NCBI GenBank assembly: GCA_021325275.1
Contig: JAJPHL010000017.1
Location: 1-64,000, forward strand
Length of the DNA stretch: 64,000 bases
Source: Terriglobia bacterium
GTDB lineage: Bacteria; Acidobacteriota; Terriglobia; JAJPHL01
Direction of reading: 5' to 3'
Made by a program: the position numbers and the translations under genes. How positions within the stretch are numbered: position 1 is the first letter of the stretch; the number at the start of each line of letters is the position of its first letter. Positions 15,855 through 29,174 of this stretch are shown in pieces. The notes beneath the pieces were generated by a model that was not told the DNA's origin, ran no database searches, and was given only the letters and a program-made list of their open reading frames with translations.

Positions 15855-17246
15855 TTATGCTCCGGAATACGTCGCGCGCTTGATGAACTCGCCTGCTCCG
15901 GCTCGACCATAGAACTTGTCGCCTTCCACCAGCACTTTCCCGCGCGATAAAACCACGTCAGGCATGCCTTTCACCTTGATTCCTTCGAACATCGAGTAGT
16001 CCACGCGCATGTGGTGTGTGGCCGCGCTGATAGTGTGCTCGCGGTTGGGATCGAAGATCACAATGTCGGCGTCGCTGCCCACGGCGATGGTGCCTTTGCG
16101 TGGATATAACCCAAATAGTTTTGCTGGAGTTGTGGCCACTATCTCAACAAAACGATTAATGCTGAACCGCCCCGCCGCCGGACCTCCCGAATAGATCAAA
16201 CTGAAGCGATGCTCAATGCCCGGACCGCCGTTCGGGATCTTCGTGAAGTCGTCGCGGCCGAGTTCCTTCTGTTCCTTGAAGCAGAACGGACAGTGGTCGG
16301 TGGAAACCACTTGCAGATGATCGTTCTTTAGACCCTGCCACAGCTTTTCCTGATTCCATTTTTCGCGCAGCGGCGGCGTGAAAACGTACTTCGCGCCGTC
16401 GAAGCCGCCAGGATTGTCGAAATTATCGAGCGACAAATAAAGGTACTGCGGGCACGTCTCCGCATACACCGGCAATCCCTTGTCGCGGCCCTCGCGGACT
16501 TTCTGAAGGGCGTCGTCGCAACTCAAGTGCACGATATAGAGCGGCGATCCCGCGATTTCCGCCAGCGCGATTGCGCGCGACACCGCTTCTGCTTCCAGTG
16601 AGGTAGGCCGCGTGAGCGCGTGATACTTCGGCGCGGTCTTGCCTTCCGCCAAGGCTTGCTGCACGATCACGTCAATCGCTCCACCGTTTTCGGCATGCAT
16701 GCAAACCATCGCGCCGTTCTTCGACGTTTGCTGGAGCACGCGGAAAATCGTCGCGTCGTCGAGCATGAAGACGCCGGGATAGGCCATGAACAGCTTGAAA
16801 CTTGTCACGCCGTCGCGGACCAGCGCGTTCATTTCCTCCAGGCGCGCCGCCGGAACGTCGGTCATGATGCAGTGGAAGGCGTAATCGGCCACGGCCTTGC
16901 CGTCGGCTTTCTTCATCCATGTGTCGAACGCCGTGCGCAGGTCCTGACCCTTGTACTGGATCGCGAAATCAACGATCGTGGTCGTTCCGCCGTAGGCCGC
17001 GGCCGTCGTGCCGGTTTCGAAATCGTCGGCGGAGGTGCTGCCGCCGAAGGGCATATCGAGGTGCGTGTGCGCGTCGATACCGCCCGGAAAAACGTAGCGC
17101 CCGGTGGCATCGATAACCTTCTTGGCGTCGCGCGGCAGCGACTTTCCGATCGCCGTGATCTTGCCATCTTCAATCGCCACGTCGGCCGCGTAGGTGTCGG
17201 TTGCGGTAACTACTGTGCCATTCGTAATAATCGTGTCGAATCCCAT
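15855..17246 (-). CDS. hydA: Dihydropyrimidinase (D-hydantoinase)
   Basis: This 463-residue cyclic amidohydrolase opens dihydrouracil or dihydrothymine (or 5-substituted hydantoins) in reductive pyrimidine breakdown. The binuclear metal site is visible: GGIDAHTHLDMPFGG, the Lys that is carboxylated in TSFKLFMAYPG, the His residues of CMHAENG and YIVHLSCDDA, and the Asp of VSTDHCPFC. Length and motif order are normal for the family. The ATG at 17246 (MGFDTIITNG) is preferred to the TTG/GTG extension to 17297, which would overlap the divergent gene. The next steps of the pathway (beta-ureidopropionase, dihydropyrimidine dehydrogenase) are not in the window. Confidence 0.93.
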   Translation of the reverse strand: MGFDTIITNGTVVTATDTYAADVAIEDGKITAIGKSLPRDAKKVIDATGRYVFPGGIDAHTHLDMPFGGSTSADDFETGTTAAAYGGTTTIVDFAIQYKGQDLRTAFDTWMKKADGKAVADYAFHCIMTDVPAARLEEMNALVRDGVTSFKLFMAYPGVFMLDDATIFRVLQQTSKNGAMVCMHAENGGAIDVIVQQALAEGKTAPKYHALTRPTSLEAEAVSRAIALAEIAGSPLYIVHLSCDDALQKVREGRDKGLPVYAETCPQYLYLSLDNFDNPGGFDGAKYVFTPPLREKWNQEKLWQGLKNDHLQVVSTDHCPFCFKEQKELGRDDFTKIPNGGPGIEHRFSLIYSGGPAAGRFSINRFVEIVATTPAKLFGLYPRKGTIAVGSDADIVIFDPNREHTISAATHHMRVDYSMFEGIKVKGMPDVVLSRGKVLVEGDKFYGRAGAGEFIKRATYSGA

Positions 17247-17296
17247 AATTCGGTCATTGTATGCTAAACACGCCTGCTCAGCGGGCGGAGGAACCA

Positions 17297-18292
17297 ATGC
17301 GTTTTGGAATCACTTTCAAGGGCGACCTGGCGGTCGACCGCACGATCAATCTTACGAAGCAAGCCGAAGACTCGGGATTCGAGTACGGCTGGATTTTCGA
17401 TTCCCACATTTTGTGGCGCGAATGCTATCCGATGCTCGCGCTGATGGCCAATGCCACCAAGCGCATGAAGTTCGGCACGTTGGTAACGAACCCGGCGGTG
17501 CGCGACCACACGGTGACGGCGAGCTTGCTGGCGTCGCTGAACGAAATTTCGCACGGCCGCATGCAACTCGGCATCGGGCGCGGCGACAGTTCGCGTCGCG
17601 TGCTTGGTAAAAAGCCCACCACACTAGCGCAACTCGAGGAATGCTGCGCCACCATCACGACGCTTTGCTCCGGCGGCCAAATCGATTACGAAGGGCGTCC
17701 GGCGAAACTCACGTGGGCGAAACACGGCGTACCTCCCGTGTGGGTGGCGGGCTACGGACCGAAGGCGCTCCACACCGCCGGTAAAATCGGCGACGGGGTG
17801 ATACTGCAATTCGCCGATCCCGACTTGATCGAATGGTGCATGGGCTTTGTGCGCGAAGGTGCCAAGGAAGCCGGCCGCGATCCGTCGAAGATCGAAGTGA
17901 TGTCCGCCGCGCCTGTGTGGATGGACGCCGACCTGAACAAGTGCCGCCAGCAAGTCCGCTGGTTCCCCGCTCTGGTGTCGAATCATGTGGTCGATTTGGT
18001 CTCGCGATACAAACCGGAGGAACTGCCGCCGGCGCTCACGGCGTACGTTCAGGATCGCAAAGGCTACGATTACCTGCATCACGCCGAGGTCGGCAGCTCG
18101 AACGCGCAGTTTGTGAGCGACGAAGTAGTGGATCGCTTCTGCGTAGTGGGTCCCGCGGAGGCGCACGTCGCGAAGTTGAAGCGCTTGCAGCAAGCCGGTG
18201 TCACGCAGTTCAACATTTACCTGATGTGCGGCGACGAGGAGCAAACGCTGGTCGACTATCGCAAGCACGTGCTCGGCGCGTTCGGCAAGTGA
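17297..18292 (+). CDS. LLM-class flavin oxidoreductase (TIGR03842/CPS_4043-like)
   Basis: This 331-residue protein has the luciferase-like monooxygenase TIM barrel. The N-terminus MRFGITFKGDLAVDRTINLT is followed by GFEYGWIFDSHILWRECYPM, and RMQLGIGRGDSSRRVLG is the cofactor/phosphate region. Members of this subfamily are often found next to dihydropyrimidinase genes, as here, where the two diverge from a 50-base gap. A role in pyrimidine or hydantoin catabolism with F420 or FMN is inferred from that association. The ATG at 17297 follows GGAGGA at ideal spacing. Confidence 0.87.
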   Translation: MRFGITFKGDLAVDRTINLTKQAEDSGFEYGWIFDSHILWRECYPMLALMANATKRMKFGTLVTNPAVRDHTVTASLLASLNEISHGRMQLGIGRGDSSRRVLGKKPTTLAQLEECCATITTLCSGGQIDYEGRPAKLTWAKHGVPPVWVAGYGPKALHTAGKIGDGVILQFADPDLIEWCMGFVREGAKEAGRDPSKIEVMSAAPVWMDADLNKCRQQVRWFPALVSNHVVDLVSRYKPEELPPALTAYVQDRKGYDYLHHAEVGSSNAQFVSDEVVDRFCVVGPAEAHVAKLKRLQQAGVTQFNIYLMCGDEEQTLVDYRKHVLGAFGK

Positions 18293-18342: not shown

Positions 18343-18597
18343 ATGAAGAAGACCTTCAATGTTGATTTCGAGCTGCTGCGGGAAGCCCGGACCGCGTGTG
18401 GTGCGAGCACGGACACCGAGACGCTTCGCCGTGGTCTGGAGGCGCTCATCCGGCATGCCTCGTATACGCGATTGCGGACATTTCTCGGGTCGGAGCCGGA
18501 TGCGAAGGATATTCCTCGCCGTCAAGAACCGGCGTCTCGTTCTCGGATGAATTTTCGCCGCTCGAATCGTAGTCAGAGTGCACGGCGGGCGGCATAA
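18343..18597 (+). CDS. VapB-type antitoxin
   Basis: This 84-residue protein is the putative antitoxin of the downstream PIN toxin. It begins MKKTFNVDFELLREARTACG, a ribbon-helix-helix-like segment, continues with STDTETLRRGLEALIRHASY, and ends in a basic disordered tail that would bind VapC. The stop codon directly abuts the toxin ATG. No Shine-Dalgarno is visible; TAAGAT at 18330-18335 could be a -10 box so close that the transcript would be leaderless. Confidence 0.75.
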   Translation: MKKTFNVDFELLREARTACGASTDTETLRRGLEALIRHASYTRLRTFLGSEPDAKDIPRRQEPASRSRMNFRRSNRSQSARRAA

Positions 18598-18975
18598 ATG
18601 GTCTTAACGGATACGTCCGTCTGGATTCGGTCGTTGGCTGGCCGCGCCCCTTATACCGCGGCACTCGATCGCCTCTTGGCTCGCGACGAAGTCGCCGGCC
18701 ATGAACTGGTCTATGGCGAGCTCTTGATCGGTGACCGTGGCGGACGTACCAAACTCTTGGCCGACTACGCTAGAATGCATCAGGCCGTCACGGTTCCCCA
18801 CGCGGAGGTTGTGGCTTTTGTTCGAGCACGCGGATTGCACGGCCGCGGAGTCGGTTGGATCGATGTCCACCTTCTCGCTTCGGCCATTGCCGGCCGGATG
18901 AGGCTGTGGACAGCCGACCCACGCTTGGCCGCGTTAGCGCACGACCTGGGTGCAGCCTACGAACAGGAGGCTTGA
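18598..18975 (+). CDS. VapC-type PIN-domain ribonuclease toxin
   Basis: This 125-residue PIN protein is predicted to cleave tRNA or rRNA when freed from its antitoxin. The four acidic active-site positions are all present: Asp in MVLTDTSVWIR, Glu in LVYGELLIG, Asp in GVGWIDVHLLASA and Asp in LWTADPRLAAL. The gene starts immediately after the antitoxin stop, so the two are co-translated. It appears intact, in contrast to the broken vapC at 59917. Confidence 0.88.
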   Translation: MVLTDTSVWIRSLAGRAPYTAALDRLLARDEVAGHELVYGELLIGDRGGRTKLLADYARMHQAVTVPHAEVVAFVRARGLHGRGVGWIDVHLLASAIAGRMRLWTADPRLAALAHDLGAAYEQEA

Positions 18976-18998: not shown

Positions 18999-20144
18999 AT
19001 GCCTCATCGATTCACCATCGGCGTGGAGGAAGAACACCAGATCGTCGATCCGGTGTCGGGCGAACTGCGCTCGCACATCAGCCAGTTGATCGCGGCGAGC
19101 GCTCCGTCGCTCGGCGAGCAGATCAAGCAGGAAATGCATCAGTCGATCGTGGAGGTGGGCACCAACATTTGCGCCGACGTGAAGGAATTGCGCCGCGAGA
19201 TGTATCACATGCGCGGGCAGCTTTCCGCCGCCGCGTCGCGCGTGGGACTGGCCATCGCCGCCGCCGGCACGCATCCCTTCGCCGACTGGAAAGACCAAGT
19301 GATCTCGCCCGGTGAGCGCTACCAAAACATCGTCGAAGAATTGCAGCAACTCGCGCGGTCGCTCCTGATTTTCGGCCTGCATGTACACGTGGCGATGCCC
19401 GACCGCGCCACCACCATCGACTTGATGAACATGACGCGCTACTTCCTGCCGCATTTGCTTGCGCTGTCGACAAGTTCGCCGTTCATCCTGGGCCGCGACA
19501 CGGGATTGAAGTCGTACCGCACCACGATTTTCCGCCGCTTCCCGCGCACCGGCATTCCCGACACCTATGGATCGTGGAGCGAATACGAGAACTATGTGAA
19601 TTTGCTGGTGGAACTCCGCTGCATGGACAATGCCAAGAAAATTTGGTGGGACATCCGTCCGCATCCTTACTTCGGAACGCTGGAATTCCGTATCTGCGAC
19701 GTGCCCACGCGCGTGGAAGACACGATTTGCATCGCGGCGCTGTGCCAAGCGTTGATCGTGAAGCTCTACAAGTTGTACACGCAGAACCAAGGATTCCGCG
19801 TCTATCACCGTTCGCTGATCGAAGAGAACAAGTGGCGCGCGGTCCGCTGGGGCATCGAAGGGAAACTCATCGACTTCGGCAAACGCAAGGAAGTTCCCAT
19901 GCGCGATCTGGCGCTGGAGCTGCTCGATTTCGTCGACGACGTGGTGGACGAACTCGGCAGCCGCTCTGCGGTGGAGCGCGTGCTGACGATCTTGCGCGAG
20001 GGAACGTCGGCCGAACGGCAACTTGCCGTCTTCAAACGCACCGGCGATATCAAGGCCGTGGTGCAGCATTTGATTCGAGAAACTATGGAAGGAGTACCGG
20101 AATTAGCTACCGAGACATCCAGCACACCGGGGATTCGCGCCTAG
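18999..20144 (+). CDS. GCS2-family carboxylate-amine ligase (YbdK-like)
   Basis: This 381-residue enzyme belongs to the glutamate-cysteine ligase type 2 family (TIGR02050/YbdK), which joins an amino acid carboxylate to an amine using ATP. The N-terminus FTIGVEEEHQIVDPVSGELR carries the acidic metal-binding triad EEE. Further family motifs are QSIVEVGTNIC, GTHPFADW and the C-terminal half PHPYFGTLEFRICDVPTRVE. AGGAG lies before the ATG. It is followed on the same strand by two ATP-grasp genes, so a short peptide-like product is a reasonable inference. Whether it makes gamma-glutamylcysteine or something else cannot be told from the sequence. Confidence 0.88.
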   Translation: MPHRFTIGVEEEHQIVDPVSGELRSHISQLIAASAPSLGEQIKQEMHQSIVEVGTNICADVKELRREMYHMRGQLSAAASRVGLAIAAAGTHPFADWKDQVISPGERYQNIVEELQQLARSLLIFGLHVHVAMPDRATTIDLMNMTRYFLPHLLALSTSSPFILGRDTGLKSYRTTIFRRFPRTGIPDTYGSWSEYENYVNLLVELRCMDNAKKIWWDIRPHPYFGTLEFRICDVPTRVEDTICIAALCQALIVKLYKLYTQNQGFRVYHRSLIEENKWRAVRWGIEGKLIDFGKRKEVPMRDLALELLDFVDDVVDELGSRSAVERVLTILREGTSAERQLAVFKRTGDIKAVVQHLIRETMEGVPELATETSSTPGIRA

Positions 20145-20190
20145 TTCTGTTTTCTCGGTGCTCGGTGCTCGGTGGCGAATCGGCGTTCTC

Positions 20191-21141
20191 ATGAAAATAG
20201 GATTACTTTGCGGTCGAGAGTACAGTTTTCCTCCCGCGTTTCTCGATCGCGTGAATTCCCTCGGAGCGGCGCACGGCATCACTGCGGAATTCGTCAAGCT
20301 CACCGGCACGCGAATGGGTGAAGAGCCGGAATATCGCGTGATCGTCGATCGCATTTCCCACGAGGTCGAGTATTACCGCGGCTATCTCAAGCATTCCCTC
20401 CTGAACGGAACGTACGTGATCAACAATCCGTTCTGGTGGACCGCCGACGACAAATTTTTCAACTACTCTGTCGCCGCGAAGCTCGGCATCGCGATTCCCA
20501 AGACCGTGTTGTTGCCGCAGAAAGGCTACCCGAAGGACGTCGACATCGTTTCCGAATCGCTGCGCAACTTGGGATATCCCATCGACTGGGAAGGATTGCT
20601 CGACTACGTCGGCCGCCCGGCGATCCTGAAGCCGTTTTCAGGCGGCGGATGGAAGCATGTTCACAAAGTGAACAACACGCAGGAACTGATTGCGGCGTAC
20701 GACACCACGTCGCCGTATTGCATGACGCTCCAGCAATTCGTGCACTTCGACAAATACGTGCGTTGTTTCACTTTCGGGAAAACCGACATCACCCCGGTGC
20801 ATTATGATCCGCACGAACGTCGTTACATCGTGGATCACAATTATCTTTCGCCCGAACTTGGCGATCGCGTCGTGCGCGACGCGCAAACCATCAACCAAGC
20901 GCTCGGCTACGAGATGAACACCATCGAGTTTGCGGTGGAAGACGGCGTCCCCTACGCCATCGACTTCCTAAATCCCGCGCCCGACTTCGAACGCGACCGC
21001 ATCACGCCGCACTATTTCGATTTAGTGCTCGATCGCATGTCGAAGCTGGTGATCGATCGCGCGCTGCACGGCCATTCTTCGTCGACATTTCCCGGATGGC
21101 GCGGCATGTTAGGAATGGCAGCGGCCGCAACCGCCAAATGA
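20191..21141 (+). CDS. ATP-grasp ligase of unknown substrate
   Basis: This 316-residue protein has a RimK/glutathione-synthetase-like ATP-grasp arrangement. An N-terminal pre-ATP-grasp domain (MKIGLLCGREYSFPPAFLDR) is followed by the ATP-binding lobe with GRPAILKPFSGGGWKHVHKV. The acidic metal-binding motifs lie toward the end (NTIEFAVEDGVPYAIDFLNP). It probably forms an amide or peptide bond by way of an acyl phosphate. It begins 46 bases after the GCS2 ligase and overlaps the next gene by ATGA, so the three form one operon. The product is unknown. Confidence 0.82.
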   Translation: MKIGLLCGREYSFPPAFLDRVNSLGAAHGITAEFVKLTGTRMGEEPEYRVIVDRISHEVEYYRGYLKHSLLNGTYVINNPFWWTADDKFFNYSVAAKLGIAIPKTVLLPQKGYPKDVDIVSESLRNLGYPIDWEGLLDYVGRPAILKPFSGGGWKHVHKVNNTQELIAAYDTTSPYCMTLQQFVHFDKYVRCFTFGKTDITPVHYDPHERRYIVDHNYLSPELGDRVVRDAQTINQALGYEMNTIEFAVEDGVPYAIDFLNPAPDFERDRITPHYFDLVLDRMSKLVIDRALHGHSSSTFPGWRGMLGMAAAATAK

Positions 21142-22448
21142 CATACGCCGAACTCTGGGAGTCTCTCGTCGAGCCGAGTGATCGCTCGCCCGCTGCCGTT
21201 GCGGAACTCGCGCGAACGATGCGCGAGCGCAAAGTGACCTTCGGCGATCGCCCGCACTGCCCTTTCCTGCGCCCGTTCTTTCTGGATGCCGCTGATGAGA
21301 CGCGCGTCCGAGTTGCCGGTGAAGCGATCGCCGCGATCGGCGAACGCGTAATCGAAGCGTCGCTCGCTGATCCGGCGCTCTTGGCGCAAGTCGGATTGAC
21401 GGAGGCGGAAGAACGCCTGGTGCGAATCGATCCCGGATACAAGCGCGCCAGCACCGCGTCACGGCTGGACTCTTTCTTGTTACCCGATTCGCTGATGTTC
21501 GCCGAGTACAACGCGGAGTCGCCGGCGGGCTTAGGATATTCGCAAACGCTCGGCGAAATTTTCGCGGCGTTGCCGCTGATGGATCGATTCCGCAAGCAGC
21601 ATCGAGCGGAAACACGGCCGATTATGGAGTCCATGCTCGAAGCGCTCCTCGCGAGCTACAAGGATTGGGGCGGCACGGCGAATCCGCCGCAGATTGCGAT
21701 TGTCGACTGGAAAGAAGTCCCGACTTACACGGAATTTGAAATCCTGCGTGATCGCTTTGAGCGCCTGGGCGTCCCGACGCTGATTGCCGATCCGCGCGAC
21801 TTGGTTTTCTCGGGCGGCGCGTTGACGGCGCACGGCAAAAAGATCGACTTAGTTTATCGCCGCGTGCTCGTAAACGACATCTTGGCCAAGCCCGCCGAGT
21901 GCCAAGCGCTGATCGACGCGTATTCCGCGCGCGCCGTCTGCGTCGCGAACACCCTGCGCTGCAAGATTCCGCACAAGAAAGCATTCTTCGCCGTGCTGCA
22001 CGACGAGCGCAACCAGCATTTGTTCAGCGGCGCCGAACGCGAGATCATCCGCCGGCATATTCCGGTGACGCATGTAGTCAACGAGCGTGTGGCGGAGTCG
22101 GCGCGCGGCCGTCGTGAGAACTTGGTTCTGAAGCCAAGCGACGAATATGGCGGCGCGGGCGTTTTTCTAGGCTGGGAGTTGACCTCTTCACAGTGGGATG
22201 AAGCCTTGCAGCGAGCGGTAACGGACGCGGGCAAAGTTTGGATTGTGCAGGAGCGAATCCCGGTGCGTCGTGAGGAATTTCCGATGTTCACCGTCGACGC
22301 CAGTGTGACACGTAAGGAAATGCTGGTCGATTTCTCGCCGTATTTTTTCCGCGGAAAAGCGTGCGGCTATCTCACGCGGCTCAGCGCCACGGGACTCGCG
22401 AACGTGACCTCGGGCGGCGGCCAGGCTCCTGCGTTTGTCGTGTCATAG
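21138..22448 (+). CDS. Second ATP-grasp-like protein, circularly permuted type
   Basis: This 436-residue protein differs from its neighbour and resembles the circularly permuted ATP-grasp group found beside GCS2-type ligases. Visible marks are FAEYNAESPAGLGYSQTLGE, a central Rossmann-like part (PQIAIVDWKEVPTYTEFEIL), and the ATP-binding part ENLVLKPSDEYGGAGVFLGW followed by KVWIVQERIPV. The C-terminus contains TSGGGQAPAFVVS. The start overlaps the stop of the preceding ligase. It may add a further residue or modify the product of the first two ligases; this is inference from gene order. Confidence 0.75.
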   Translation: MTYAELWESLVEPSDRSPAAVAELARTMRERKVTFGDRPHCPFLRPFFLDAADETRVRVAGEAIAAIGERVIEASLADPALLAQVGLTEAEERLVRIDPGYKRASTASRLDSFLLPDSLMFAEYNAESPAGLGYSQTLGEIFAALPLMDRFRKQHRAETRPIMESMLEALLASYKDWGGTANPPQIAIVDWKEVPTYTEFEILRDRFERLGVPTLIADPRDLVFSGGALTAHGKKIDLVYRRVLVNDILAKPAECQALIDAYSARAVCVANTLRCKIPHKKAFFAVLHDERNQHLFSGAEREIIRRHIPVTHVVNERVAESARGRRENLVLKPSDEYGGAGVFLGWELTSSQWDEALQRAVTDAGKVWIVQERIPVRREEFPMFTVDASVTRKEMLVDFSPYFFRGKACGYLTRLSATGLANVTSGGGQAPAFVVS

Positions 22449-22566
22449 GCGAGATTCTTGACCAAATCGGGCTGGACGTTTGAACAATCCCATTTCGTTG
22501 ATAATCTAAAGATCACTATGTTGAAGCGAGTTGATTCAAAGCGCAGTTCGCGATGATGGCTGAAAA

Positions 22567-23595
22567 ATGAAAGCTGCTTTCGGAAATCCCGTGGACGACC
22601 TGATGCCCGGATCGCGCAATGCGATCGGCACGTGCCTTGCCGTGCGGCCGCAGGAGCGCGTCACGCTGGTCGCCGACTCCGCCAGCGCAGCCGTCGCCGC
22701 GAGCCTCGGACAAGCGCTCGACGAAACGGGCTGCGATTGGCACGGCATTCTCGTGGAAGACGTCGCGTCGCGCCCCGTCACTTCGCTGCCTCCAGCAATT
22801 CGCGAGGCGCTCGAGTCGACTGACGTCGGCATCCTGTGCATTCAACCGCAGCCCGGCGAATTGCCCATGCGCATGGCGCTGGTGGAAATCGTGGAACGGC
22901 GCCAGATTCGCTATGCGCACATGGTCGGTGTGAACGCGCAAATCATGCGGCAAGGGATGCGCTCGGATTACCGCCTTGTCGATCGCCTCAGCGACCGCTT
23001 GCGCGAACGCATGGTCGTGGCCGGCACGCTCCGCGTGCGCACGCCGGGCGGGACATCGTTGGAAGCACATTTCGACAAAACCCTGGCCTGGGTGAAGACC
23101 AGCGGAATTATCAGCACACGATACTGGTCGAATTTGCCGGCGGGAGAAGTTTTCACCACGCCCGCGCGCGTCGATGGTGTTTTCGTTTGCGACGGCACGG
23201 CCGGCGATTACTTCAATGGAAAGTACGGCGATCTCAGCCGCAATCCAATGCGTTTGCAAATTGAGAACGGCCGCCTGCGCGCCGTCGATTGCGCGCGCAA
23301 AGATTTGGAGCGCGAGTTTTGGGAATACTGCCATATGGACGAGAATAGCGATCGCATCGGCGAGTTAGCCTTCGGCACGAATTACGCCCTGACGGAATTC
23401 ATCGGCGTGCTTTTGCAGGACGAAAAGTTTCCGGGCGTGCACATCGCCTTTGGCGATCCCTATGGAAACCAAACGCACGCCGATTGGAAGTCGCGCACGC
23501 ATGTCGACGTGCTGACGCGCCAGTGCGATGTTTGGATCGACGACGATCAAGTGATCGCCGGCGGACGTTATTTGATGGAACGCCTTGGATTGTAG
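22567..23595 (+). CDS. M29-like leucyl aminopeptidase
   Basis: This 342-residue protein resembles thermophilic (M29/AmpS) metallo-aminopeptidases, which remove N-terminal residues from peptides. The central and C-terminal parts show the family pattern: VCDGTAGDYFNG, NSDRIGELAFGTNYALTEF with the metal-binding Glu, VHIAFGDPYGNQTHADWKSR with the metal-binding His, and THVDVLTRQCDVWIDD with the Asp. It is cytoplasmic, with no signal peptide. It lies 118 bases downstream of the ATP-grasp genes in the same direction and converges on the TldE/TldD genes, so a role in trimming the product of those ligases is possible. Confidence 0.8.
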   Translation: MKAAFGNPVDDLMPGSRNAIGTCLAVRPQERVTLVADSASAAVAASLGQALDETGCDWHGILVEDVASRPVTSLPPAIREALESTDVGILCIQPQPGELPMRMALVEIVERRQIRYAHMVGVNAQIMRQGMRSDYRLVDRLSDRLRERMVVAGTLRVRTPGGTSLEAHFDKTLAWVKTSGIISTRYWSNLPAGEVFTTPARVDGVFVCDGTAGDYFNGKYGDLSRNPMRLQIENGRLRAVDCARKDLEREFWEYCHMDENSDRIGELAFGTNYALTEFIGVLLQDEKFPGVHIAFGDPYGNQTHADWKSRTHVDVLTRQCDVWIDDDQVIAGGRYLMERLGL

Positions 23596-23622
23596 AACGT
23601 CCAACGTCCGACGGAACCCGAA

Positions 23623-24954
23623 TCAGAACTTCGTGACTTCGGTAAAGTGGAAATCGCGGACCTTCATCGCGGGCACGACCATCTCGAACGCTTCTTCGCC
23701 CGAGGCGCGCACCGAAGGACTCATCGCCTCGACGTTGTTCAGCATTTTTACCAGGCTCTGATTGAAGCGGAAATTGCGCAGACCGCGCACCACGCGGCCG
23801 TTTTCCACTAGGAACGTCCCGTCGCGCGTCATGCCGGTCATTACTTTTTCGTACGGTTCCACTTCGCGAATGTACCAAAGGCGTGTGACGAGAATTCCCC
23901 GCTCCGTGGACGCGATCATTTTGTCGATCGACGAATCGCCGCCTTCGATCACAATGTTCATCGGCGCTTCGCCCATTTCGTTGGGCAGCGGAAATCCGTG
24001 ACCCGTTGGCGCGGTCTTCGCTTCGGCCGCCGATTTTTGCGAGTAGACCAAATTGCGAATCACGCCCTTCTCGACGAGCGGCAGCGTGTGGCGCGCAAAA
24101 CCTTCGCCGTCAAAAGGCGCCCCCGATTGCAACGGATGTGTGGCGTCGTCGCGAATCGTGATGTTCTCGCCGAAAAGCTTTTCACCGACACGGTTGTTCA
24201 GGAAACTGCGTTGCTCCTTCACACTCATCGCGCCGAAATCGTAGTACATCCATCCGAGGACATCGAGAACCGCCGACGGTTCGAGGATCACCGTGTAGAA
24301 TCCAGGGTCAATCGCAACAGGATTTCGGCTGGCCACGGCTTTTTCTCCGGCGCGTTCAGCCATGGCGCGAGAATCGATCGCCGCAATGTCGGGCGAGTTC
24401 GCCTTCGCCCATCCGGAACTATCGGGGGCCATCATCGTGACCGAAGCTTCAGAATGCGTGTCGCGATAATACGCCGCGAGTCCGCGCGAGTTCATCAGCG
24501 CGTAAAAACCCTCGCCGGTTGCGAAGATCCCCGCCGCGGTAAGCTGCCGTTTCTCCGCTTCGGCAATCATCACCCGCGCGTTCGCCGCACGTTCCGCAGG
24601 TCCGGCGGCGGCGGTGGCGGCGTGAAAACGTTTCACATGCGGATAGGCCTGTGGGCCGGGCATCGGCTGCAAATCGGGATCCGCGGGACTCGACTTCGCC
24701 AGCGCCGAACACTCCGAGACCACGCGGGCGACCGATGCAGCGTCGAGCTTGTTGGTAGTCGCGCGCGCGGTGCGTCCGCCGAACACGGTGCGCACCGAAA
24801 GCGACACCGATTCTTCCTCGACGTTTTGATGAATCGTGTTGTTGGCGAAGCGCGTCAGCGCATCACGGCCACCCGAAACGATCGCTTCGGTTTCGTCGGC
24901 GTCGCTGACCCGCAGAACTTGCGCGAAAAGTTCCTGGCACTGCGATTCGGTCAT
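23623..24954 (-). CDS. TldE/PmbA-like subunit of a TldD/TldE peptidase
   Basis: This 443-residue protein is the metal-free partner in the TldD/TldE heterodimeric metallopeptidase, which degrades unfolded peptides and matures some modified peptides such as microcins. It has the N-terminal TldD/PmbA segment DALTRFANNTIHQNVEEESV and the C-terminal ERGILVTRLWYIREVEPYEK. It lacks the HExxxH metal motif seen in the neighbouring TldD gene, as expected for TldE. The start at 24954 is close to the hairpin that separates it from tldD on the same strand. Confidence 0.88.
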   Translation of the reverse strand: MTESQCQELFAQVLRVSDADETEAIVSGGRDALTRFANNTIHQNVEEESVSLSVRTVFGGRTARATTNKLDAASVARVVSECSALAKSSPADPDLQPMPGPQAYPHVKRFHAATAAAGPAERAANARVMIAEAEKRQLTAAGIFATGEGFYALMNSRGLAAYYRDTHSEASVTMMAPDSSGWAKANSPDIAAIDSRAMAERAGEKAVASRNPVAIDPGFYTVILEPSAVLDVLGWMYYDFGAMSVKEQRSFLNNRVGEKLFGENITIRDDATHPLQSGAPFDGEGFARHTLPLVEKGVIRNLVYSQKSAAEAKTAPTGHGFPLPNEMGEAPMNIVIEGGDSSIDKMIASTERGILVTRLWYIREVEPYEKVMTGMTRDGTFLVENGRVVRGLRNFRFNQSLVKMLNNVEAMSPSVRASGEEAFEMVVPAMKVRDFHFTEVTKF

Positions 24955-24962
24955 GAAAACCA

Positions 24963-25071
24963 GAAATCAAAAATCAAAGATCAAAGATCAAAAATCAAAA
25001 ATACGAAGCCAGTACGGCCCAGTCCTCATTTTTGATTCTTGCTCTTTGATTTTTGATTTTCGATTTCCCCT
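24963..25071. repeat. Word-repeat hairpin (unit like ATCAAAAATCAAAG)
   Basis: The 121-base gap between the TldE and TldD genes is an A-rich run of ATCAAA words (24963-25002), a short loop, and a T-rich complement (25027-25068, TTTGATTTTTGATTTTCGAT). It has the same design as the other word hairpins but a different word. Confidence 0.78.
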
Positions 25072-25075
25072 CCTC

Positions 25076-26533
25076 CTATCCTGCCAACGCGGTCCCGATT
25101 TTCACTCCGCGAAACCTTGCCGGACTGGCGCCGTGTCCGGTGCCCATCACCTGTTGCGGCTGGCCCTTGCCGCAATTCGGCGTGCCCCACAGCGTCCAAT
25201 GGTCACGATTGCAAACGGCGTCGCAGGAATTCCAAAAATCGGTGGTGATCCCGCTGTAGCTCGGGTTCTTCAGTAAGCGCGTCTTCTTTCCGCCGCGAAT
25301 CTCCCACGCCGCTTCGCAGCCGAATTGGAAATTGAAACGCTTGTCGTCGATCGACCAACTACGATTCGTCTCCATCCAGATGCCTCGATCCGTCGAGGCA
25401 ATCAGCGCATCGAGCGTCCAATCGCCGGGCAAGATCGAAATATTCGACATGCGCACCAGCGGAATCCGATTCCATCCTTCCGCGCGCATGCATCCGTTCG
25501 AGCGCGGCTCGCCGATTTCGTGCGCCGTCTCGCGCGACGTTATGTAGCCGGTGAATTTCCCCGCGGTGATGATGGGCGCGCACTGCGCGGCCACGCCTTC
25601 ATCGTCGTAGCCGAACGTTCCCAGGCCCGCGCCGTGTTCCAGCCGCCCATCGGCCACCACGTTGACCACATCGGAGCCGTAACGCAGCGTGCGCAACTTA
25701 TCCAGCGTGAGAAAACTCATGCCCGCGAAATTCGCTTCGTGACCCAACACGCGATCCAGCTCGATCGGATGCCCGATCGACTCGTGAATCTGCAATCCAA
25801 GCTGCGAGGAATCGAGAATCAGGTCCATCGTGCCTGAAGGACAGGCGTCGGCTTTGAGCAACGCGACCGCTTCTTCGCCGACGCGGCCGGCGTTCTCGCG
25901 CAAGCGCAGAGATTCGATGAGTTCGTAGCCGCGACACTGAAATTGTCCGCCGAAAGAATTGGGATAGGAACGCTTTTGGATTTCGGAGCCGGCAAAAGCG
26001 TAGGCCGCGAATCCGCCGCCGGAAAGATATTTCGTTTGATGGATCTTCGCGCCGGCAGTGGAGGCGAAGTATTGTTCGATGCGGCGAAAGTTCAGGCCTG
26101 CTTCCGCCAGCGTGACGCCCGCGACGCGCCGCAGCTCGGCGTCGACGCCCAGAAGCAACGCGGCATTGTCCTCGATGGATGTCGCGAACGGATCCTTCTC
26201 GCATGGACCCACCCACGTGTCGACCACAGCGTTTTCGGGAGCTAAAACGAGGTCGCGTTTCTTTGCCGTCGCCGATGCGCGCGCGATTTCCACGGCGCGC
26301 GCGGCGGTTGCTTCAACGGATTGCCGGGAAAGATTATCGGTGGCGGCAAAACCCCACGCGCCGCCGGCGATCACGCGCACGCCGATCCCCAGCGACTCCG
26401 ACGCGCTTACTTGACCCACGCGGCCGTTGCGGGTGGAGACGGTTCGCTCGCGGGAATCGATCACTCTCGCGTCGGCATATGACGCTCCGCAAAGCTCGGC
26501 GTGATTCAAGGCCCAATTTGCTAGGTCATCCAT
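25076..26533 (-). CDS. TldD-like zinc metallopeptidase subunit
   Basis: This 485-residue protein is the catalytic subunit of a TldD/TldE pair. The zinc motif HExxxH is visible in LQIHESIGHPIELDRVLGHE, and the C-terminal Cys-type region follows in GEPRSNGCMRAEGWNRIP. The N-terminus MDDLANWALNHAELCGASYA matches the family. A start 20 codons further upstream would translate the word-repeat hairpin as a false hydrophobic leader, so the ATG at 26533 is used; no strong Shine-Dalgarno is seen because the repeat abuts the gene. The peptide substrate is unknown, but nearby ligases make an endogenous peptide product conceivable. Confidence 0.9.
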   Translation of the reverse strand: MDDLANWALNHAELCGASYADARVIDSRERTVSTRNGRVGQVSASESLGIGVRVIAGGAWGFAATDNLSRQSVEATAARAVEIARASATAKKRDLVLAPENAVVDTWVGPCEKDPFATSIEDNAALLLGVDAELRRVAGVTLAEAGLNFRRIEQYFASTAGAKIHQTKYLSGGGFAAYAFAGSEIQKRSYPNSFGGQFQCRGYELIESLRLRENAGRVGEEAVALLKADACPSGTMDLILDSSQLGLQIHESIGHPIELDRVLGHEANFAGMSFLTLDKLRTLRYGSDVVNVVADGRLEHGAGLGTFGYDDEGVAAQCAPIITAGKFTGYITSRETAHEIGEPRSNGCMRAEGWNRIPLVRMSNISILPGDWTLDALIASTDRGIWMETNRSWSIDDKRFNFQFGCEAAWEIRGGKKTRLLKNPSYSGITTDFWNSCDAVCNRDHWTLWGTPNCGKGQPQQVMGTGHGASPARFRGVKIGTALAG

Positions 26534-26678: not shown

Positions 26679-27953
26679 CTACGTTCCTTCACTCCATGAC
26701 GCCAGATACTCTTCCTGCTCCGGCGTCAAGCGATCGATCTTGATGCCCATCGACTCGAGCTTCATTTTCGCCACTTGGCGATCGATGGGTTCCGGAACCG
26801 CAAAGACTTTCTTCTCGAGCGTGGCGTGATTCTTCAGCAGATACTCGACCGAGAGCGCCTGGTTCGCGAAGCTCATGTCCATCACCGACGCCGGATGGCC
26901 TTCCGCCGACGCCAAGTTGATCAGCCGTCCTTCGCCCAGCACGTAAACCTTGCGGCCGTCGCGCATGACGTATTCGTCGACCATCGGTTTGGTGGGACGT
27001 TTGGTGGAGGCCATTTTCTCGAGGGCGACTAAGTCGATTTCCACGTTGAAGTGGCCGGAGTTGCAAACCACCGCGCCGTCCTTCATGTGTTCGAAGTGCT
27101 CGCGCACCAGAACGCTCTTGTTGCCGGTGACGGTGATGAAAATGTCGCCGATCTTCGCGGCCTCCAACATCGACATCACGCGGTGACCATCCATCACGGC
27201 TTCAATCGCACGCGTGGGATTCGTTTCGCAAACGATGACGCTCGCTCCGAGACCGCGCGAGCGAAGCGCGACGCCCTTGCCGCACCATCCGTATCCCGCC
27301 ACCACCACGTTGAGTCCCGCGAAGAGCAAATTCGTGGCGCGCAGAATGCCGTCCAGCGTGGATTGGCCCGTGCCGTAGCGATTATCGAAGAGATGCTTCG
27401 TCTCGGCGTCGTTGATCGCGACCACCGGAAACTTCAGCACGCCCTGTTTGGTCATGGCGCGCAAACGGATCACGCCGGTGGTGGTTTCTTCGGTGCCGCC
27501 GATCACGTGCTCGGCGAGTTCGGGACGCGCGGTGTGCAGCATGTGCACCAGATCGCAGCCGTCGTCCATGGTCACTTGCGGCTTGTGGTCGAGCGCCGCG
27601 CCGATGTGTTTGTAGTAGCTATCGTTATCCTCGCCCTTGATCGCGTACGTCGGGATGCCGTAATCGGCCACCAGCGACGCGGCCACGTCGTCCTGCGTGC
27701 TCAGTGGATTGGAAGCGCACAGCACGATGTTGGCGCCGCCGTCCCGCAGCGCGATCATCAGGTTGGCCGTTTCGGTAGTCACGTGCAAGCACGCAGACAC
27801 GCGGATGTCTTTGAGGGGCTGATGCTTGATGAATTGCTTGCGAATGGTTTGCAGGACGGGCATCGACTGATTCGCCCATTCAATGCGGCGCTTGCCCTGG
27901 TCCGCCATCGCCAGATCTTTTACGTCACACGGAGTCTTCGTTGGTGAAGTCAT
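26679..27953 (-). CDS. ahcY: S-adenosylhomocysteinase
   Basis: This 424-residue cytoplasmic enzyme hydrolyses S-adenosylhomocysteine to adenosine and homocysteine and so clears the product of methyltransferases. The family landmarks are [20 protein letters not shown] near the N-terminus, [12 protein letters not shown], the NAD-binding [20 protein letters not shown], and [15 protein letters not shown]. The length is typical of bacterial short forms without the plant-type insertion. It follows metK by 42 bases on the same strand, so SAM synthesis and SAH removal are likely cotranscribed. No SAH riboswitch is evident in the short gap. Confidence 0.96.
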
Positions 27954-27995
27954 AGTTTTATTTTTTAGTTGTGGTGCCTTGTATGTTGCGATTCC

Positions 27996-29174
27996 TTATT
28001 TGTGTCCCGCGACCAGTTCGCCTTTTCCGGCAGTAGCCAGCGCGCCGGCCAAGTTCGTTGCTTCCCAGGTAAAACCTTCCGCTTCGCGGCCGAAATGTCC
28101 GTACGCGGCCGTCTGGCGATAGATGGGACGGCGAAGGTTGAGGCTGTCAATGATACCTTTCGGCGTGAGCTTGAAATGCTCGCGCACCAATTCCACCAGG
28201 CGTGCGGACGGCAGCGTGCTCGTTCCAAACGTTTCGACGAGCACCGACACGGGGTCGGCCACGCCGATCGCGTACGCCAACTGCACCTGGCAGCGGTGCG
28301 CGAGTTTCGCGGCCACAATATTCTTGGCGATGTAGCGCGCCATGTAGCACGCCGAGCGGTCGACCTTCGTGGGGTCCTTGCCGGAGAACGCGCCGCCGCC
28401 GTGCGGGGCGGATCCGCCGTACGTGTCCACGATGATCTTGCGGCCGGTGAGGCCGGTGTCGCCGTGCGGTCCGCCGATGATGAATTGTCCCGTGGGATTG
28501 ATGTGCGTCTTGAGCGTCTTGAAATTGGTGAGATGGGTGGGCAGCACGGGACGAATCACGTGCTCCATGATTTCTTCGCGAATCCTCGATTGCGCAACAT
28601 CGGCGGCGTGCTGGGTGGAAATGACCACCGTTTCTACGCCCACCGGCCGGCCGTCGCGATACTCGACGGTGACTTGCGACTTGCCATCGGGACGCAGGAA
28701 CGGCAGCGATCCGTTCTTGCGGACTTCCGCCAGGCGCCGCGTCAAGCGATGCGCCAGCATGATCGCCAGCGGCATCAACTCTTCGGTTTCGTCCGAAGCG
28801 TATCCGAACATCATGCCCTGGTCGCCTGCGCCGCCGGTGTCCACGCCCATGGCGATGTCGCCCGATTGCTGATGCACGGCGGTGAGCACGGAGCAGGTTT
28901 CGCAATCGAAACCGTATTCGGCGTTGTTGTAGCCGATCTCATTGATGGTTTTGCGGGCGACGCCCTGAAAGTCGATGAAGCCTGTGGTGGTGATTTCACC
29001 CGCGATGAAGGCGATGCCCGTGGTCAGGATCGTTTCGCAGGCCACGCGGGACATGGGGTCCTGGGAGAGCGCCGAATCGAGTACGGCGTCGGAAATTTGG
29101 TCGGCGATTTTGTCCGGATGACCCTCGGTCACCGACTCGGACGTGAATAAAAAGCGCTCTTCGGGATGTGCCAC
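27996..29174 (-). CDS. metK: S-adenosylmethionine synthetase
   Basis: This 392-residue enzyme makes S-adenosylmethionine from methionine and ATP. Diagnostic stretches are [20 protein letters not shown], the MAT signature [12 protein letters not shown], the phosphate loop [16 protein letters not shown], and [18 protein letters not shown]. It starts with GTG at 29174, preceded by GGAGG at good spacing. A clear sigma-70-type promoter lies upstream at 29231-29260. The gene heads the metK-ahcY unit. Confidence 0.97.

Follow-up and report, generated by a model that had tools for sequence, protein, structure and literature searches.

A conserved set of amide ligases and hydrolases, foremost in Acidobacteriota, that may make and turn over a small gamma-glutamyl-type peptide

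The window, meaning the whole stretch of DNA analysed here, comprises 64,000 nucleotides of a Terriglobia bacterium (assembly GCA_021325275.1, contig JAJPHL010000017.1, positions 1-64,000, forward strand). It carries an operon of three predicted amide ligases from different families and a predicted metallopeptidase, facing a TldE/TldD pair. We find that the four genes of the operon, together with an alpha/beta-hydrolase gene located elsewhere in the genome, belong to a conserved set that may synthesize and turn over a small (pseudo)peptide, and that TldE and TldD do not belong to it. The genes of the locus are as follows (aa, amino acids).

18999-20144, + strand: GCS2/YbdK-type carboxylate-amine ligase, 381 aa (PF04107; PRK13515 equivalog)
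20191-21141, + strand: RimK/LysX-like ATP-grasp ligase (predicted model, fold matches, conserved residues)
21138-22448, + strand: circularly permuted ATP-grasp ligase, 436 aa, glutathione/glutathionylspermidine synthetase fold (PF14403, PF04174, predicted model)
22567-23595, + strand: M29-family metallopeptidase, 342 aa (PF02073, C-terminal half)
23623-24954, - strand: TldE/PmbA homologue, outside the module (PF19289/PF01523/PF19290)
25076-26533, - strand: TldD homologue with its ATG at 26533, outside the module (PF19289/PF01523)

A previous reading made from the DNA letters (the sequence-only reading) had proposed that these six genes constitute a single peptide-building system. Gene calls and profile searches bear out the positions and strands it gave, including the ATGA overlap of the RimK-like and permuted ATP-grasp genes (21138-21141) and the convergent, minus-strand orientation of both TldE and TldD. 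The likely start codon of the RimK-like gene is the ATG at 20191, in preference to the GTG found upstream at 20158.

A search with the RimK-like protein through 84,980 species genomes retained 80 loci, onto which we mapped the proteins of the window. Neighbours, defined as genes within 6.5 kb, were counted at the 50 loci with enough flanking DNA, consisting of 34 close relatives (at least 70% identity) and 16 more distant ones. The standard order in the close group is GCS2, RimK-like, permuted ATP-grasp and M29 on one strand: the RimK-like gene is accompanied by GCS2 and by the permuted ATP-grasp gene in 34/34 loci and by M29 in 28/34, and in 3 more of the 34 a protein resembling class-I glutamine amidotransferases (GATase-I) fills the M29 slot. 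In almost every case the RimK-like and permuted ATP-grasp genes sit very close together: the median gap is 3.5 bp, and they overlap in 25/61 cases. A fifth partner that the sequence-only reading had overlooked, an alpha/beta-hydrolase of family PF00756, adjoins in 27/34 close loci; in the genome of the window it lies on another contig (C10:61874-62593, 67% identity). Among the 16 more distant loci the prevailing order is hydrolase, RimK-like, GCS2, M29 and a protein designated c13. This slot replacement appears to be a divergent permuted ATP-grasp enzyme, as judged from its hhalign match to the profile of that family (probability 81%, E=1.2e-5).

The partners also track the RimK-like gene across genomes. 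In a sample of 48 Acidobacteriota genomes, 28 of them picked for carrying the RimK-like gene and 20 for lacking it, GCS2 was present in 24/28 of the former and 1/20 of the latter, the alpha/beta-hydrolase in 27/28 and 4/20, and a close M29 homologue in 9/28 and 0/20. Of these nine M29 genes, eight are found no more than about 6 kb from the RimK-like gene; the remaining copy (genome G271) adjoins GCS2 and c13, at a distance of 36 kb from it. The set can be divided as well. Three Chloroflexota genomes hold hydrolase and RimK-like genes at one locus and permuted ATP-grasp, GCS2 and M29 at a second, and in an Armatimonadota genome (L081/G333) GCS2 and M29 are located away from the RimK-like gene. 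The same genes are thus kept in sub-operons even where the whole set splits, which is strong evidence for one five-gene functional module.

The first four genes of the locus are co-linear far beyond chance, and the co-linearity of TldE and TldD with them is not. Both proteins pass the PmbA/TldD Pfam models, and TldD has the HESIGH motif. The idea that all six genes form one peptide-building and trimming system draws on their proximity in the window's genome and on a single TldD/TldE-like gene (23% identity) at L133:10556-11902 in genome G122, which is transcribed divergently from the RimK-like gene and is the sole case among the loci examined. Against this, TldE/TldD stand next to the ligases in 0/34 close loci and 0/50 eligible loci overall. 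In the closest same-class carriers of the ligases, close TldD homologues (67-69% identity) are found off the ligase contig (G111, TldD on C23 and ligases on C13; G232, C15 versus C88), and TldD also occurs in G102 and G146, neither of which has RimK-like or GCS2 genes. Since TldD is present in ligase-less relatives and on other contigs in ligase carriers, TldE/TldD fall outside the module; they are chance neighbours of the ligases in this genome, and a six-gene system is highly improbable. The sequence-only reading had named a lack of ligase-protease neighbours in other genomes as a refutation of its idea, and on this test the six-gene system fails while a four-to-five-gene system, with the three ligases and M29 as a conserved unit, survives.

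GCS-type enzymes form gamma-glutamyl bonds, and the GCS2 protein of the window is assigned to its family with ample margin: it matches PF04107 at E=2e-62 (211.6 bits, cutoff 21), TIGR02050/YbdK at 305.7 bits (cutoff 176.4) and NCBIfam PRK13515 at 541 bits (cutoff 371). Its closest solved structures are 1tt4 and 1r8g (YbdK), and residues EEE10-12, E52, H128, H130, E229 and R231 are kept across 34 relatives. We predict from its family that GCS2 catalyses the first, gamma-glutamyl-type amide-bond step.

The RimK-like protein has no Pfam match and scores far under the rimK_fam cutoff (TIGR00768; 30.2 vs 143.4 bits), so it is RimK-like by fold and lies outside the RimK family as that model defines it. 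A predicted model (predicted local distance difference test score, pLDDT, 86.7) confirms the ATP-grasp fold, with RimK (5zct, Z 21.7), ArgX (3vpb, Z 21.6) and LysX (3vpd, Z 21.1) aligning over about 260 residues. K147, E246, D258 and N261, numbered from ATG 20191, are kept in 43 relatives; from the motifs we take K147 to be the ATP lysine and the other three to be Mg ligands. An in-frame fusion of the RimK-like and permuted ATP-grasp genes at L051 was not trusted, as its linker contains an N, and plasmid-borne spread was set aside because the RimK-like protein has no plasmid match.

RimK and LysX/ArgX modify the C-termini of proteins or a carrier protein, and the resemblance to them raises the question of post-translational tagging, in which the RimK-like enzyme and GCS2 would put amino acids or a short peptide on a protein or carrier and M29 or the hydrolase would remove them. 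Such chemistry has precedents in RimK on ribosomal protein S6, LysX on LysW, and PafA with Pup. However, the longest intergenic space in the window operon is 118 bp, too small for a carrier gene, and no conserved neighbouring carrier was seen in a scan of open reading frames of at least 80 aa. The permuted ATP-grasp enzyme, moreover, is nearest to small-molecule ligases. With no room for a carrier gene and with this resemblance, protein tagging is the less likely use of these enzymes, and we give it a low probability.

The permuted ATP-grasp protein passes PF14403 (46.9 vs 32 bits) and PF04174 (26.8 vs 23.1 bits), and its predicted model (pLDDT 93.9) has the permuted three-domain fold. The top Foldseek matches are eukaryotic glutathione synthetases. 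Structural alignment over 364-417 of 436 residues gives Z 31.7 for YgiC, 30.6-31.3 for glutathione synthetase (GSS) and 30.6 for glutathionylspermidine synthetase (GspS), and the matches at Z 30-32 include YgiC/YjfC, the plant, yeast and human glutathione synthetases, homoglutathione synthetase and glutathionylspermidine synthetase. Sequence identity to these structures is 12-17% (12-16% for the glutathione and glutathionylspermidine synthetases), and the Pfam GSH-synthase model does not match the protein. Glutathione-synthetase-type enzymes add Gly, beta-Ala or a polyamine to gamma-glutamyl peptides. At L126, L127, L129, L141 and other loci, an additional permuted ATP-grasp paralogue, less similar at 37-38% identity, is encoded a few kb away from the RimK-like gene.

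A GCS2-family enzyme beside a glutathione-synthetase fold could mean that the pair makes glutathione or a direct substitute for it as a redox thiol, the more so as the window's genome has no second GCS2-family gene. Yet GCS2 reaches 78 bits on the cyanobacterial GshA model, far short of the 249-bit cutoff, and BshC is encoded in the window's genome and in 26/28 genomes with the RimK-like gene. Bacillithiol thus probably fills that role, and glutathione replacement is very unlikely.

The peptidase matches PF02073 over its C-terminal half only (E=1.4e-11, 44.4 bits, cutoff 27), the N-terminal half being divergent. E194, E266, H292, Y299, H312 and D314 are invariant across 32 relatives. E194, E266 and H292 were matched by alignment to AmpS (1zjc); H312, D314 and Y299 were assigned by motif. 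As judged from these alignments and motifs, the protein has all five metal ligands of the aminopeptidases (Glu, Glu, His, His, Asp) as well as the catalytic Tyr. NicX is its best sequence match in the PDB, but we rejected a NicX-type dioxygenase: the glutamate ligands missing from NicX (7cn3) are present here along with the other aminopeptidase ligands. The protein shares its C-terminal domain with AmpS and NicX, and differs from both in being shorter and in its divergent N-terminal half.

The GATase-I-like protein (c39), encoded outside the window, follows the permuted ATP-grasp gene in six loci (L021, L026, L040, L058, L059 and L122), and in L139 it sits exactly in the M29 slot of that locus's relatives. 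Its invariant CHxFG and NHHPE motifs supply C164, H281 and E283 as in class-I glutamine amidotransferases; the assignment is tentative because the best GATase profile match is weak (E-value 0.28). That another hydrolase can take the M29 slot suggests that the pathway includes a hydrolytic step. In the alpha/beta-hydrolase, G-x-S117-F-G and H224-D are invariant. At two Terriglobia-type loci an M19 membrane dipeptidase gene (PF01244) lies between the alpha/beta-hydrolase and RimK-like genes (L082:1528-2706; L086:1274 onward).

Deprotection by the hydrolase is the main rival to a biosynthetic module. Here a gamma-glutamyl cap would be attached by GCS2 or another of the ligases, the capped compound processed by another pathway, and the cap then removed by the M29 or GATase-like enzyme, as with BtrJ/BtrG in butirosin and PuuA/PuuD in putrescine catabolism. 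M29 and the GATase-I-like protein share one slot, GATase-I-fold enzymes such as PuuD cleave gamma-glutamyl amides, and GCS2 and M29 adjoin even where other module genes sit elsewhere (G333), all of which this scheme accommodates. Three ligases, however, exceed the need of capping, and the loci of different lineages share no consistent link to a processing enzyme such as an oxidase or aminotransferase. We consider a protect-process-deprotect scheme unlikely.

We favour, with a probability of roughly 0.55, a five-gene module that makes and turns over a small gamma-glutamyl-type (pseudo)peptide independently of ribosomes and of nonribosomal peptide synthetases (NRPS), a reading that rests on gene content, conservation, co-occurrence, folds and conserved active-site residues. 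Enzymes of the GCS2, RimK-like and permuted ATP-grasp types activate a carboxylate as an acyl-phosphate and then transfer it to an amine. As the most economical reading, three bonds would be made in turn. By way of an acyl-phosphate, GCS2 would couple an acidic amino acid (probably glutamate) with either an amine or an amino acid; the RimK-like and permuted glutathione-synthetase-like ligases would then each add one unit; and M29 (the GATase-I-like hydrolase in some lineages) and the PF00756 hydrolase would trim, deprotect or recycle the product. That a small oligopeptide is built, as the sequence-only reading also proposed, we infer from the enzyme families, and the activity of each enzyme, the order of steps, glutamate as the substrate and a free small molecule as the product are likewise inferred. 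Going further, the product might be a new gamma-glutamyl peptide or peptide-amine conjugate serving as a core metabolite (a cofactor, storage or stress compound) in many Acidobacteriota and some Chloroflexota and Armatimonadota, with a dedicated M29 or GATase-like recycling enzyme; this we put forward tentatively, as possible but doubtful.

Several observations weigh against the five-gene module. GCS2 is missing from 4/28 Acidobacteriota genomes with the RimK-like gene, and M29 from most of the more distant ones. The Fisher p-values of the three co-occurrence comparisons (1.7e-8, 3.2e-8 and 0.006) ignore relatedness among genomes and are a guide only. To our knowledge, YbdK-type GCS2 enzymes are poorly characterized. 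The loci show no constant association with a gene for a transporter, a regulator or substrate supply, which leaves the substrate a guess.

The module can be set beside known systems. Like the glutathione and glutathionylspermidine systems (GshA-type GCS, eukaryotic-type GSS, GspS, YgiC/YjfC), it combines a GCS-family ligase with a permuted three-domain ATP-grasp enzyme (Z about 31), and as in GspS, which carries an amidase, a hydrolase is linked to the synthetase. It differs in its extra RimK-like ligase, in having M29 in place of the CHAP amidase, and in the low sequence identity noted above. A widespread predicted tagging system is made up of a permuted ATP-grasp enzyme, an N-terminal nucleophile (NTN) peptidase and an alpha-E domain, unlike the set described here. 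A 2009 survey of amidoligases by Aravind and colleagues reportedly described operons of different ATP-grasp and COOH-NH2 ligases with associated peptidases, and the module likewise links differing ligases of these two kinds. Our literature search, which did not extend to that survey, found no description of this gene combination. Reading linked amide ligases of different folds as successive ligations is a known principle (restated in PMC4431377). Cp1B of the fungal E-64 pathway is a stand-alone permuted ATP-grasp enzyme of the hGSH-synthetase fold that makes pseudodipeptides without an NRPS (PMC12568646). Its structure (PDB 9cjn) matches the module's permuted ATP-grasp model at Z 26.8, and its partner is an amide synthetase of the ANL type, in contrast to the GCS2, RimK-like and M29 partners seen here.

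A five-gene set conserved in several phyla, with Acidobacteriota foremost, points to a shared metabolite not yet named. Chemistry resembling glutathione synthesis, coupled to a dedicated peptidase, offers a compact and testable entry to it, since the specificity of the peptidase would show which bond the ligases form.

Some further genes recur beside the module. At gp6-type loci an ATP-grasp protein with weak Pfam matches (c18) and a second PF00756 esterase (c21) lie just downstream (L028:6209-7426, L036, L039, L042, L046, L052, L061 and L065; not in the window) and are a possible extension of the pathway. Three genes syntenic at gp2 loci, a methyltransferase (c7), an oxidoreductase-like gene (c6) and an aminotransferase (c9), were rejected as members because they look clade-specific. 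In Chloroflexota loci L148, L149 and L150, judged by eye, a conserved ACT-domain protein resembling the phosphoserine phosphatase SerB and a response-regulator-like protein stand beside the permuted ATP-grasp, GCS2 and M29 genes; the SerB-like neighbour may hint at serine as a substrate.

Within the window, a VapB-like/VapC (PIN) toxin-antitoxin pair occupies 18343-18975, ending 23 bp 5' of GCS2; the VapB-like protein scores under the Pfam cutoff, and the pair is absent from related loci. Further upstream lies a D-hydantoinase/dihydropyrimidinase gene (15855-17297, - strand; TIGR02033 at 642 bits). Beyond TldD and on the same strand, 26679-29174 (-) encodes an adenosylhomocysteinase (424 aa, TIGR00936) and then an S-adenosylmethionine synthetase-like protein, the latter labelled by sequence without a family search; together they are, by these assignments, a methyl-cycle pair.

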